The notes under the pieces are model-generated. The model was not told the origin of the DNA. It saw only the letters and a list, made by a program, of their open reading frames with translations, and did no database searches. The position numbers were made by a program, and so were the translations under genes. This document shows positions 41,920 through 44,822 of a stretch of 64,000 bases of DNA, one piece after another. Within the stretch, counting starts at the first letter, position 1. Each line of letters starts with the position of its first letter. The stretch covers positions 372,001 through 436,000 of the forward strand of contig NZ_RJVO01000003.1 of NCBI RefSeq assembly GCF_003730135.1. The letters run 5' to 3'. Source of the stretch: Stagnimonas aquatica (GTDB lineage Bacteria > Pseudomonadota > Gammaproteobacteria > Nevskiales > Nevskiaceae).

Positions 41920-42402
41920 ATGAGCCAGATCAATCTCGACATCCGCGCCATCATGGGTCTGCTGACCCATCGCTCGCCCTTTCTGCTGGTGGACCGGGTG
42001 ATCGCCTACGAAAAGCAGAAGACGCTCACCGCGATCAAGAACGTCACCTACAACGAGCCGTATTTCACCGGCCACTTCCCGCTGGTGCCGACCATGCCCG
42101 GGGTGTTGATGCTGGAGGCGCTGGCGCAGACCTGCGGCCTGTTGGCGGTGCTCGACTCCGGCATCCGCCCCGACTCCGGCTACCTGCTGTATTTCGCCGG
42201 CGTCGACGGGGCGCGCTTCAAGCGGCCGGTGGTGCCGGGCGACCAGTTGACCCTGCACGTGGAGCTGGACAAGCAGAAGCGCCATGTCTGGCGCTTCAAG
42301 ACCAGCGCCCGGGTCGGCGAGGAGCTGGCCTGCGAAGCGGTGCTGACCTGCGTGCTGAAGCATCCCGACGAGGGTCGTGCGGCTGCGGAGGCCTCGGCAT
42401 GA
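41920..42402 (+). CDS. fabZ: 3-hydroxyacyl-ACP dehydratase FabZ
   Basis: A 160-residue hot-dog-fold dehydratase of type II fatty-acid synthesis. MGLLTHRSPFLLVDRV starts the core, with catalytic His in YFTGHFP and Glu in GVLMLEALAQ. Three bases separate it from lpxD, and its stop overlaps the lpxA start (ATGA). Placement between lpxD and lpxA balances 3-hydroxyacyl-ACP use between phospholipid and lipid A, as known from other gammaproteobacteria. Confidence 0.97.
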   Translation: MSQINLDIRAIMGLLTHRSPFLLVDRVIAYEKQKTLTAIKNVTYNEPYFTGHFPLVPTMPGVLMLEALAQTCGLLAVLDSGIRPDSGYLLYFAGVDGARFKRPVVPGDQLTLHVELDKQKRHVWRFKTSARVGEELACEAVLTCVLKHPDEGRAAAEASA

Positions 42403-43199
42403 GCGCGCCGCGCATCCATCCCACCGCGATTATCGACGCCAAGGCCGAGCTGCATGGCTCGGTGCAAGTGGGTCCGTACTCGATCATCGGCCCCGGTGTC
42501 GAGATCGGCGAGGACTCCTGGATCGGCCCGCACGCGGTGCTCACCGGCCCGCTCAAGCTCGGCAAGCGCAACAAGGTCTACCAGTTCGCCAGCGTCGGCG
42601 AACTCTCCCAGGACAAGACCGCGACGCCGGAGCAGCCGACCAGCACGGTGATCGGCGACGACAACATCATCCGCGAGTACGTCAGCATCCAGCGCGGCAC
42701 GATGAAGGAGTACGAGACCAAGCGCGGCGAAACCCGCATCGGCGACCGCAACCTGATCATGAATTACTGCCACATCGCGCACGATTGCGTGGTGGGCAGC
42801 GACACCATCTTCGCCAACAACGCCAGCCTTGCCGGCCACGTCGAGATCGGCGACTGGGTGATCCTCGGCGGCTACACCCTGGTCTACCAGTTCTGCCGCA
42901 TCGGCCCGCATGCCTTCACCGCCTACGCGGCCGGCCTGTCCGGCGACGTGCCGCCGTTCGTGATGGTGCAGGGCAGCCCGGCCGACGCCCGCGCCATCAA
43001 CAAAGAAGGTCTGCGCCGCCGTGGTTTCAAGCCGGAGGAGATGGCGCCCATCGAAGAGGCCTTCAAGCTCATCTACCGCTCCGGCAAGGTGATGGCCGAG
43101 GTCAAGGCCGAACTGGCCGAGATGGCCAAGACCTCCGAGCACGTCCGGCTGATGTCCGAGTTCATCAACTCGGGCAAGCGGCCGCTGGCGCGTGGGTGA
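42399..43199 (+). CDS. lpxA: UDP-N-acetylglucosamine acyltransferase
   Basis: A 266-residue hexapeptide-repeat trimer catalysing the first lipid A step. IHPTAIIDAKAELHGSVQVG opens the left-handed beta-helix; NYCHIAHDCVVG contains the catalytic histidine region and YGLNxxGL-like AYAAGLSGDVPP precedes the C-terminal helices. ATG 42399 is fixed by homology and the fabZ overlap; the 200 residues read upstream in frame are a shadow of lpxD/fabZ. Its stop abuts the DUF559 start without a gap. Confidence 0.97.
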   Translation: MSAPRIHPTAIIDAKAELHGSVQVGPYSIIGPGVEIGEDSWIGPHAVLTGPLKLGKRNKVYQFASVGELSQDKTATPEQPTSTVIGDDNIIREYVSIQRGTMKEYETKRGETRIGDRNLIMNYCHIAHDCVVGSDTIFANNASLAGHVEIGDWVILGGYTLVYQFCRIGPHAFTAYAAGLSGDVPPFVMVQGSPADARAINKEGLRRRGFKPEEMAPIEEAFKLIYRSGKVMAEVKAELAEMAKTSEHVRLMSEFINSGKRPLARG

Positions 43200-43655
43200 A
43201 TGACGGCTCCTGGCTATTCGAGAGAAGGCCTCGCTCGTGCCCGCAAGCTGCGGCGCGAGATGCCTCCGGCCGAGCGCAAGCTGTGGTTCGAAGGTTTGCG
43301 GCTGCTGCCTCAGCATTTTCGGCGGCAGCGGCCGTTTGGGCCGTATATCGTGGATTTTTACTGCGCGGCTGCGAAGCTCGTGATCGAGCTTGATGGTGAG
43401 AGCCATGACGGATTTGAAGCCCAGCATCTGGATCAGCGGCGCGATGCCTATCTGGCGGGTCTCGGTTTGAAGATTCTGCGGTTCACCAACGTGCAGGTGA
43501 TGGACGAGTTCGAGGGGGTGATGGCGGCGATTGCCGAGGCCGCGCCGACCCCTCCGTCACCTGCGGTGACACCTCCCCTGCGAGCAGGGGAGGCAAAGGC
43601 GGAGTGCCTCCCCTGCGAAGTAGGGGAGGTGGCGGCGCAGCCGCCGGAGGGGTAG
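43200..43655 (+). CDS. DUF559-family endonuclease-like protein with repeat-encoded tail
   Basis: A 151-residue protein. Residues 1-110 match DUF559, a PD-(D/E)xK nuclease-like fold: RKLRREMPPAERKLWF, FRRQRPFGPYIVDFYC, KLVIELDGESH and LKILRFTNVQV. Enzymatic role is not established. The last 35 or so codons run through GC-rich palindromic repeats and give a proline/alanine tail without resemblance to the family, so the ancestral stop may lie earlier. The ATG follows the lpxA stop directly. This gene is an insertion in the otherwise standard lpxA-lpxB order. Confidence 0.85.
   Translation: MTAPGYSREGLARARKLRREMPPAERKLWFEGLRLLPQHFRRQRPFGPYIVDFYCAAAKLVIELDGESHDGFEAQHLDQRRDAYLAGLGLKILRFTNVQVMDEFEGVMAAIAEAAPTPPSPAVTPPLRAGEAKAECLPCEVGEVAAQPPEG
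43572..43655 (+). repeat. Tandem palindromic repeats in the DUF559 tail
   Basis: Two copies of CCTCCCCTG-loop-CAGGGGAGG form hairpins at 43572-43593 and 43607-43629 (the second with a single mismatch pair at the loop), followed by a GGCGGCGCAGCCGCC palindrome and GGAGGGG. Similar CCTCCCC/GGGGAGG units are common dispersed repeats next to DUF559 genes in proteobacteria. The final GGAGGGG serves as the Shine-Dalgarno of lpxB. Confidence 0.8.
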
Positions 43656-43661
43656 TTGCGC

Positions 43662-44822
43662 ATGCACGGCCGCCCCCACTTCGCCCTCATCGCCGGCGAA
43701 CTCTCCGGCGACCTGCTCGGCGCCGCGCTGATCCGTGCCCTGCGCCAGCGCTATCCGCAGGCGCGCTTCAGCGGCGTCGCCGGCCCGCGCATGCTGGCCG
43801 AGGGCTGCGAGGCGGTGGCCAGTATCGAAACCCTGTCGGTGATGGGCCTGGCCGAGGTGCTGCCGGCGGTTCCGCGCCTGCTCAAGCTGCGCAGGATGCT
43901 GGTGAGCCATTACACCGCCGGCCGACCGGAAGTGCTGATCGGCATCGACGCGCCCGACTTCAATCTGGGCCTGGAAGCCCGCCTGAAACGTCGGGGCCTG
44001 CGTACCGTGCATCTGGTCAGCCCCACGGTCTGGGCCTGGCGCGAGGGCCGGGTGCAGACCGTCGCCAAGGCGGTCGAGCGCATCCTCTGCCTGTTTCCCT
44101 TCGAGCCGGCGGTCTACGCCAAGTACGGCGTGCCGGCCGCCTACATCGGACATCCGCTGGCCGACGAGCTGGATGATGCGGTCAGCCCCGCCGCCGGCAA
44201 GCAGGCGCTGGGGCTCGATCCGGCACGGCCGGTGCTGGCGCTGCTGCCGGGCAGTCGCAGCGGCGAGGTAAGCCGGCTGGCGGAACCCTTTGCCGAAGCG
44301 GCCAGGCGCCTGAGCGAGCAGATTCCGGGGCTGCAAGTCATCACCCCGGTCGCCAAGCCCAGCCTGCGGCCCTTGCTGGAGCAGGCGCGCCAGCAGTATG
44401 CGCCGGGCCTGGACTGGCGCCTGCTCGACGGCCAGTCGCGCGAGGCCATGCGCGCCGCCGATGCGGTACTGCTGGCCAGCGGCACCGCCACCCTGGAATG
44501 CCTGCTGCTCGGACGGCCGATGGTGGTCGGCTACCGGCTCAGCGGCTTTACGGCCTGGCTGCTGCGGCGCCTGTTGAAGGTCAGCAGCGTGAGCCTGCCG
44601 AACTTGCTCAGCGGCGAGAATCTGGTGCCGGAGTTGCTCCAGGAAGACTGCACCCCGGAACGCCTGGCGGAGGCCCTGCGGCTGCTGCTGACGGCGGACG
44701 GGGCGGCGACGCGGCAGACCGCCGGATTCGCCGCCGTGCGCGCGGAACTGCGCCGTGACGCCGCCAGCCAGGCCGCCGCCGCCATCGCCGAGCTGCTGGA
44801 AACGCCGTCAGCACGGGCTTGA
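43662..44822 (+). CDS. lpxB: Lipid-A-disaccharide synthase
   Basis: A 386-residue GT19 glycosyltransferase that condenses UDP-2,3-diacylglucosamine with lipid X. FALIAGELSGDLLGAALI at the N-terminus, VSPTVWAWREGRV, LPGSRSGEVSRL and ASGTATLECLLLGRPMVVGYR are LpxB signatures. ATG 43662 has GGAGGGG at 9 nt; TTG 43656 is possible but worse. The ribosome-binding site is contributed by the upstream repeat. rnhB follows after 60 nt. Confidence 0.96.
   Translation: MHGRPHFALIAGELSGDLLGAALIRALRQRYPQARFSGVAGPRMLAEGCEAVASIETLSVMGLAEVLPAVPRLLKLRRMLVSHYTAGRPEVLIGIDAPDFNLGLEARLKRRGLRTVHLVSPTVWAWREGRVQTVAKAVERILCLFPFEPAVYAKYGVPAAYIGHPLADELDDAVSPAAGKQALGLDPARPVLALLPGSRSGEVSRLAEPFAEAARRLSEQIPGLQVITPVAKPSLRPLLEQARQQYAPGLDWRLLDGQSREAMRAADAVLLASGTATLECLLLGRPMVVGYRLSGFTAWLLRRLLKVSSVSLPNLLSGENLVPELLQEDCTPERLAEALRLLLTADGAATRQTAGFAAVRAELRRDAASQAAAAIAELLETPSARA

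Follow-up and report, generated by a model that had tools for sequence, protein, structure and literature searches.

We analysed a gene of the DUF559 family (PF04480) located between lpxA and lpxB, which act in the synthesis of the outer membrane, in a stretch of 64,000 nucleotides of the Stagnimonas aquatica genome (contig NZ_RJVO01000003.1, positions 372,001 to 436,000, hereafter the window), and found that such genes are associated with palindromic repeats well beyond this locus. When the question is asked from the side of the DUF559 genes and across genomes, the association with repeats appears very strong, and we regard it as about as firm as sequence comparison allows. The most economical explanation, which we consider rather probable, is a two-part system in which a single-domain nuclease of Vsr/EDxHD fold is paired with cognate palindromes akin to repetitive extragenic palindromes (REP), in the manner of REPtrons, with DUF559 driving the spread of the repeats. 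We base this on the architecture of the loci, the ends specific to each copy, the co-occurrence across genomes, the in-frame insertions in host proteins, the sites lacking the gene in relatives, and the nuclease fold.

The flanks of DUF559 genes are rich in hairpins. The loci were mostly taken from the best-scoring matches, with more than one locus in some genomes, and weak relatives of DUF559 are under-represented. Once the weak loci L047-L051 and L029 (the same as L003) were left out, 119 loci remained, three of them with short flanks. Among the other 116, 62 were flanked on both sides by hairpins (score of at least 8) located within 150 bp, and 107 had such a hairpin on one side or both; at a distance of 1000-1150 bp, the corresponding numbers were none and 16 of the 116. 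The longest neighbouring open reading frames (ORF) provide a fairer control than these distal positions. This gene-centred comparison took in 106 of the 119 loci, and found hairpins on both sides of 59 DUF559 genes and of a single neighbouring ORF. We obtained similar results for 80 loci of named genomes from Clostridia, Cyanobacteria, Planctomycetes, candidate phyla, one archaeal metagenome-assembled genome, Pseudomonadota, and others. Among the 59 of these loci with full flanks, hairpins bordered 35 on both sides and 57 on one side or both (distal positions: 0 and 9), and in the gene-centred control (74 of the 80 loci) both-side hairpins were found at 42 DUF559 genes and five neighbouring ORFs. 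A preliminary description of the window, made from the sequence alone, had suggested that DUF559 accompanies such repeats elsewhere, and the two sets of loci bear this out. In the open-access literature searched, as far as its accessible text goes, we met no report of this link.

The two ends of a locus tend to match each other. The left end compared with the inverted right end scored on average 27.0 within a locus, 14.7 between different loci and 12.1 at distal positions. In the 13 genomes with multiple copies (40 copies), the pair of ends of the same copy was the best match in 30 cases, where 13 were expected at random (means of 30.0 vs 17.9). The hairpins also have an orientation. A G-rich stretch (at least 55% of 18 nt) was found on the gene side of 37 of the 147 left and 44 of the 156 right hairpins, and on the far side of only two and two. 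Hence, the polarity is fixed among the hairpins that could be scored. The tags seen at DUF559 repeats were of the ACCCCTCCG, CCCTCACCC or CGCCCCCATCCC types, with no GTAG or GTGG.

The association extends to the numbers of repeats per genome. We used 397 genomes of Pseudomonadota, of which 161 had PF04480 matches and 125 had strong ones (E≤1e-10), and counted the hairpin CCCTCNCCC-N1-8-GGGNGAGGG. This CCCTC type is the commonest in DUF559 flanks and differs from the window's own repeat type. At least five hairpins were found in 86 of the 125 genomes with strong DUF559 matches vs 17 of the 272 others (odds ratio 33, Fisher P=7e-39). When the DUF559 status was shuffled within families (294 of the 397 genomes had a family assigned), none of the 20000 trials reached the observed difference. 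Most genomes had few or no copies of the reversed pattern, although a few had up to 19. Four genomes (G258, G292, G316, G350) had respectively 10, 19, 18 and 6 reversed copies and none of the tested hairpin, which points to a further repeat family whose polarity is opposite.

It could be argued that these repeats are spread by REP-associated tyrosine transposases (RAYT) or other Y1 transposases, and that DUF559 hitchhikes with them. Inverted palindromic ends are common to both systems, and Y1_Tnp was present in 201 of the 397 genomes. Yet the presence of Y1 does not predict the hairpin: at least five copies were found in 53 of the 201 genomes with Y1_Tnp and in 50 of the 196 without it (P=0.91; 715 of 5000 within-family shufflings reached the observed value). 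Furthermore, inspection by eye of 21 Y1 loci revealed no matching CCCTC-type pair; around half of them had GGGGTCAG-like ends and one, L220, had GTAG-type ends. On the basis of these flanks and genome counts we rejected RAYT/Y1 transposases as the cause of the CCCTC repeats, and hitchhiking is hardly credible. L220 (C1:327267-327590) is a RAYT-like Y1 gene of S. aquatica itself, located between GTAGGAGCGGGCTTGCCCGCGA repeats, and two repeat systems thus coexist in this genome.

REPs with a CGTC tag are also palindromic and dispersed, and are described as lacking a dedicated transposase in the accessible part of a previous study (PMC3733652). DUF559 does not look like their enzyme, and we rejected it for this role: these REPs are not enriched at its flanks (the motif CGTCAT[TCG][CG]C was near 13 of 199 loci vs 15 of 199 at distal positions), and the four genomes richest in them lack strong DUF559 matches. 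The genomes G145 and G109 had 493 and 267 strand hits of CGTC-tagged REPs and no PF04480 match.

The genome of S. aquatica encodes four DUF559 genes, including the window copy. One is in frame within metH, where it occupies the linker that precedes the activation domain identified with Pfam (L002). Another lies between two genes which we take to encode cystathionine beta-synthase and cystathionine lyase (L003). The third, also in frame, belongs to a gene (L004); the homologue of this gene in G004 (L105) contains a CoA-transferase family III domain. All three have hairpins on both sides, their own pair of ends is the best match, and each has a distinct repeat type. Dispersed repeats are abundant in this genome. 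The window-type pattern CCTCCCCTGCN5AGGGGAGG, with up to three mismatches, had 28 and 25 hits on the two strands (53 in all) vs 2 and 0 for the reversed pattern, and there were 79 hairpins of the CCCTC type vs none for its reversed pattern. The preliminary description had considered that repeats equally common away from DUF559 genes would speak against an association. Taken literally, most of the 53 strand hits and 79 hairpins do lie away from these genes, and several window-type repeats form short inverted pairs (by eye), but this is expected of gene-less copies. That test was therefore badly posed.

The comparison with relatives revealed sites without the gene. The preliminary description had called for lpxA-lpxB junctions devoid of DUF559, and we found them in four congeners (G001-G004, loci L090-L093). 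The metH genes of G003 and G004 have neither DUF559 nor repeat at the site that is filled in S. aquatica, and that of G002 has a shorter linker insertion of a different kind. In another genus, G008 and G019 encode DUF559 in the same metH linker, and its more distant sequence suggests an independent insertion. The junction between the cystathionine genes is filled in G000, G004 and G023 (another genus) and empty in G003, G010 and G017, whereas the lyase gene of G001, G002 and G019 comes after another sequence (all by eye). Divergence of the flanks prevented us from placing the exact ends of the insertions in metH, in the CaiB-type gene and between the cystathionine genes. The linker of the CaiB-type gene L109 has several in-frame repeat units without DUF559, at a place where relatives carry DUF559 (by eye). 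In G388, which has two DUF559 copies 93% identical, the block common to both ends at the right-hand palindrome, within a complicated array.

Some DUF559 domains are part of larger proteins. The open frame extended for at least 150 codons before and at least 60 codons after the domain at 15 of the 119 loci. We ran Pfam on ten selected loci among these, leaving out L004, L032, L038, L045 and L071 (the upstream frame of the latter looks like a wrong frame by eye). The ten partners of DUF559 were DnaE, an asparagine synthase, a methylase (N6_N4_Mtase), two helicases that we take to be HrpA-like, HsdM, HsdS, two MetH, and a CoA-transferase III. Host domains were found on both sides of DUF559 in six of these proteins: DnaE, the two helicases, both MetH, and the asparagine synthase. 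In the latter the assignment comes from two amidotransferase stretches, whereas in the other five it comes from domain coordinates. In HsdM, HsdS, the methylase and the CoA-transferase, a domain was recognised on one side and the frame continues on the other, where, by eye, the sequence in HsdM and HsdS looks like the remainder of the host protein. A nuclease domain may in this manner enter proteins such as DnaE, MetH and HsdS with the frame kept. The asparagine synthase gene (L079) has further in-frame repeat arrays at a second place (by eye).

In Escherichia coli, the gene ycjD (annotated as DUF559) is located beside fabI. CCCTC repeats follow it on the 3' side and recur elsewhere (16 hairpins were counted in one record), and no matching left repeat was seen by eye. 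The repeats beside fabI are probably the Box C repeats. This may be a decaying system. Segments carrying the repeats vary in presence among E. coli strains. Of 5426 genomes, 155 cover 80% or more of a query stretch that bears repeats beside soxR, and a filled locus (L374) differs from two empty ones (L372, L373) by a clean 178-bp segment that carries a pair of CCCTC repeats. Judged against miniature inverted-repeat transposable elements, which have terminal inverted repeats and a target duplication, the segment shows a perfect direct duplication of 24 bp at its edges, but its termini are not inverted repeats (by eye). Three other repeat sites were covered over at least 80% in 270, 5126 and 621 of the 5426 genomes, with partial coverage not resolved into empty sites. 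The sapF-ycjD-fabI region did not provide a clean empty site, since the eef operon takes the place of ycjD there, and vice versa. Comparisons of Sinorhizobium and Azospirillum plasmids gave no clean empty DUF559 allele among the matches listed. A plasmid of Klebsiella pneumoniae (NZ_CP129740.1, L334) carries a broken DUF559 remnant between cysP and a gene for a Dyp-type peroxidase, with CCCTC repeats at its 3' side.

The predicted fold of the protein is that of a nuclease. The AlphaFold2 model of residues 1-114 of the window protein has a mean pLDDT of 91. The best entry of the Protein Data Bank was 3hrl (profile E=9.3e-38, Foldseek E=2.5e-6), which is NGO0050, a putative endonuclease-like protein of Neisseria gonorrhoeae. 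The homing endonuclease I-Bth0305I (3r3p) came second (profile E=1.3e-4, Foldseek E=2.5e-4, TM score of 0.66 by query length), and the structure of Vsr (1vsr) was matched by Foldseek with E=0.022. An alignment of 17 sequences has 16 invariant residues, including E25, D52, E63, D65, H69 and D78, some of which may correspond to the E, D, H and D of the EDxHD active site. The model thus indicates that DUF559 belongs by fold with the Vsr/EDxHD nucleases. The available parts of previous works point in the same direction: YcjD was placed among PD-(D/E)XK proteins in 2005, with a profile that finds Vsr (PMC1189080), and a DUF559 gene was assigned to the EDxHD homing family in 2022 (PMC9403480). Fold and literature support an active nuclease, and do not speak for its role in repeats. 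The scan of a defence library with the window protein gave only a weak partial match to DpdF (E=9.4e-6, 46 residues), and in a phage library it matched two families whose function is unknown (E=1e-8 at best, along a portion of a long profile). In Legionella pneumophila, three segments with a transposase and DUF559 were mutation and recombination hotspots during experimental evolution, according to the accessible text of the study (PMC12308824).

These structural matches are also compatible with DUF559 being a Vsr-like repair or defence gene, a passenger next to hairpins that act as terminators or insulators. The match to Vsr fits this idea. So does a 2026 study of Caulobacter, which in its accessible part reports that the DNA-damage response of bacteria lacking a cytosine methyltransferase needs VsrA, a protein with a DUF559 domain that its authors predict to be a mismatch-repair enzyme (PMC12907096). 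However, terminators leave unexplained the hairpins on both sides within reading frames, the matching ends and the number of copies linked to the gene across genomes, and neighbouring ORFs seldom have such flanks. We consider this explanation improbable.

We propose instead that DUF559 and its repeats spread as follows. Palindromes made of a GC-rich hairpin and a G/C-rich tag stand inverted at both ends of many gene copies, and scattered without the gene elsewhere. The DUF559 nuclease would cut or nick its own palindromes and/or a target, and host repair would then place copies at new sites, either of the complete unit or of short inverted pairs. Since the palindromes can be read without stop codons, in-frame units inside genes would survive. 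The window carries a divergent copy between lpxA and lpxB, which lacks a left repeat and whose 3' end holds two repeats in inverted orientation.

Several observations weigh against DUF559 as the driver of the repeats, beyond the repair function predicted for VsrA. At the level of loci, a strong hairpin is missing from at least one side of 54 of the 116, the own pair of ends is not the best match in 10 of the 40 copies of multi-copy genomes, and most hairpins pass the G-rich threshold on neither side. The window copy itself is untypical, with repeats on the right side only and with two flanks that fail to match each other (score 15.5). Among the genomes, 16 of the 125 with strong DUF559 matches have no hairpin of the CCCTC type, and 17 without strong matches (12 with no match and five with weak ones only) have at least five hairpins, e.g., 68 in G114, 155 in G306 and 114 in G412. 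General repeat richness may give part of the genome effect, since CGTC-REPs are mildly enriched in the same genomes (21 of 125 with strong DUF559 vs 19 of 272 others, odds ratio 2.7). In E. coli, the median number of repeat places per record was four in 37 records with ycjD and three in 22 without it (of 60 listed, by eye), a slight difference that is confounded by phylogroup. Finally, we infer the cutting and the movement by DUF559 from comparisons, and no DUF559 unit was mapped with exact ends and a target duplication.

Some of these observations would fit a different order of events, in which another agent spreads the palindromes and these serve as landing pads, DUF559 homing into existing inverted pairs. 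The homing-type fold, the 17 genomes with repeats and no strong DUF559, and the in-frame arrays without DUF559 in the linker of L109 (by eye) are in line with this possibility. Yet, within families, the genomes without strong DUF559 are mostly poor in hairpins, albeit with exceptions, and the ends are specific to each copy inside genomes. The metH sites of G003 and G004 lack both the repeat and the gene, and the presence of Y1 transposases, the sole other enzyme tested, has no predictive value for the repeats. Landing pads are thus an unlikely explanation.

The system in which DUF559 would spread its own repeats works like a REPtron. In the accessible parts of the studies of REPtrons (RAYT/TnpA-REP), the enzyme gene lies between inverted palindromes, copies without the gene are dispersed in the genome, and the enzymes are specific to their repeats (PMC2817692, PMC3733652). 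The gene lies between hairpins at the 62 of 116 DUF559 loci mentioned above, whereas the window copy has them on the right side only. The dispersed copies are represented in S. aquatica by both the window type (53 vs 2) and the CCCTC type (79 vs 0). However, RAYTs are HUH Y1 transposases with GTAG/GTGG tags, whereas DUF559 has an unrelated nuclease fold, C/G-rich tags and copies within reading frames. The DUF559 system is therefore not a member of the REPtrons, because both the enzyme and the tag differ. I-Bth0305I, an EDxHD enzyme, shares the Vsr-type fold with DUF559, but it is long and multi-domain and is listed among homing endonucleases of group I introns (PMC3943268, accessible part), whereas DUF559 has a single domain and hairpin ends. 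We noticed no intron or intein at DUF559 loci, although no dedicated search was made. Rickettsia palindromic elements are also palindromic and found in frame in protein genes; they have around 150 bp and encode a conserved peptide, with no nuclease mentioned in the accessible text (PMC10969869), whereas DUF559 units carry a nuclease domain.

More tentatively, and with rather less than even confidence, DUF559 units might form a separate class of mobile elements present in many phyla. A homing-type nuclease would recognise its own palindromic ends, and host repair alone, with no transposase, integrase or splicing, would copy the unit and its hairpin-only derivatives, even in frame into essential genes, whose enzymes would then carry a nuclease domain. 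The repeats beside fabI would be debris of such units. Several families of REP-like palindromes have no enzyme assigned, and DUF559 offers a concrete partner for a large untagged class, including in E. coli (ycjD). The frequent location of DUF559 genes between inverted hairpins that are also dispersed in the same genomes suggests an overlooked kind of element made of a gene and repeats, and able to sit in frame in essential genes.

The DUF559 gene of the window (43200-43655, forward strand) encodes a protein of 151 residues, putatively a nuclease of EDxHD/Vsr fold according to PF04480, AlphaFold2 and Foldseek. The domain covers residues 11-113 (43230-43538, forward strand), where PF04480 matched with E=3.5e-29 (101.3 bits for a cut-off of 20.6), and contains the 16 residues invariant in the alignment of 17 sequences. 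The protein had five Pfam matches up to E=0.1, none of them Y1_Tnp, and scored 65 bits with the NCBIfam equivalog model of DUF559 (PRK09767), below the cut-off of 218. Its 5' neighbour is lpxA (42399-43199, forward strand; Pfam Hexapep and Acetyltransf_11 in a scan begun at the second codon), whose stop codon TGA (43197-43199) abuts the ATG at 43200. Its stop codon TAG (43653-43655) is separated by 6 nt from the ATG (43662) of the 3' neighbour lpxB (43662-44822, forward strand; Pfam LpxB, E=6.2e-113). In a comparison with the congeners, this ATG was displaced by no more than one or two codons from the ATG start of three of the four (L090, L092, L093; by eye). As the preliminary description had stated, the DUF559 frame begins at the lpxA stop and runs through both hairpins.

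The two repeat units of the window are each built from a C/G-rich tag, one small hairpin and one main hairpin of 22-23 nt, with a spacer between the two main hairpins. Unit 1 (43548-43593, forward strand) has the tag ACCCCTCCG at 43548-43556, which faces the DUF559 gene like the right ends at other loci, the small hairpin at 43557-43569 and the main hairpin at 43572-43593. Unit 2 is inverted (43607-43653, reverse strand), with the main hairpin at 43607-43629, followed by the small hairpin and the tag CGGAGGGGT at 43645-43653. A search of the 64-kb window alone for a similar pattern, with up to three mismatches, gave one match (with no mismatch), which is not significant (41 of 100 shuffles had at least one). 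We rejected a known structured RNA as the identity of the pair: its five Rfam matches up to E=1 were all far under the gathering scores.

This pair could in principle matter solely as a regulator of lpxB, as a ribosome-binding site or an attenuator. The motif GGAGGGG (43646-43652) is inside unit 2 and lies 9 nt before the lpxB ATG, precisely where the preliminary description had placed it, and the RNA of 43541-43660 is predicted to fold strongly (-90.8 kcal/mol vs -56.0 ± 4.3 in 200 shuffles, z=-8.2). However, this fold pairs GGAGGGG with the first tag, and no GGAGG was seen by eye in the 20 nt preceding the lpxB starts of the four congeners; the ribosome-binding site that had been proposed is not confirmed. 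Moreover, the congeners have lpxA-lpxB without the repeat pair, and similar repeats are present at many other places. Regulation of lpxB as the sole significance of the pair is thus very improbable. Since GGAGGGG is paired, any role in lpxB translation would need an opening of the fold, e.g., by ribosomes on the DUF559 tail; translation through the repeat pair may have this effect and couple lpxB to DUF559. The lpxA-lpxB junctions of the congeners (L090-L093) carry other palindromes, in tandem in L090 (by eye), and this junction looks as if it were a favoured site for repeats.

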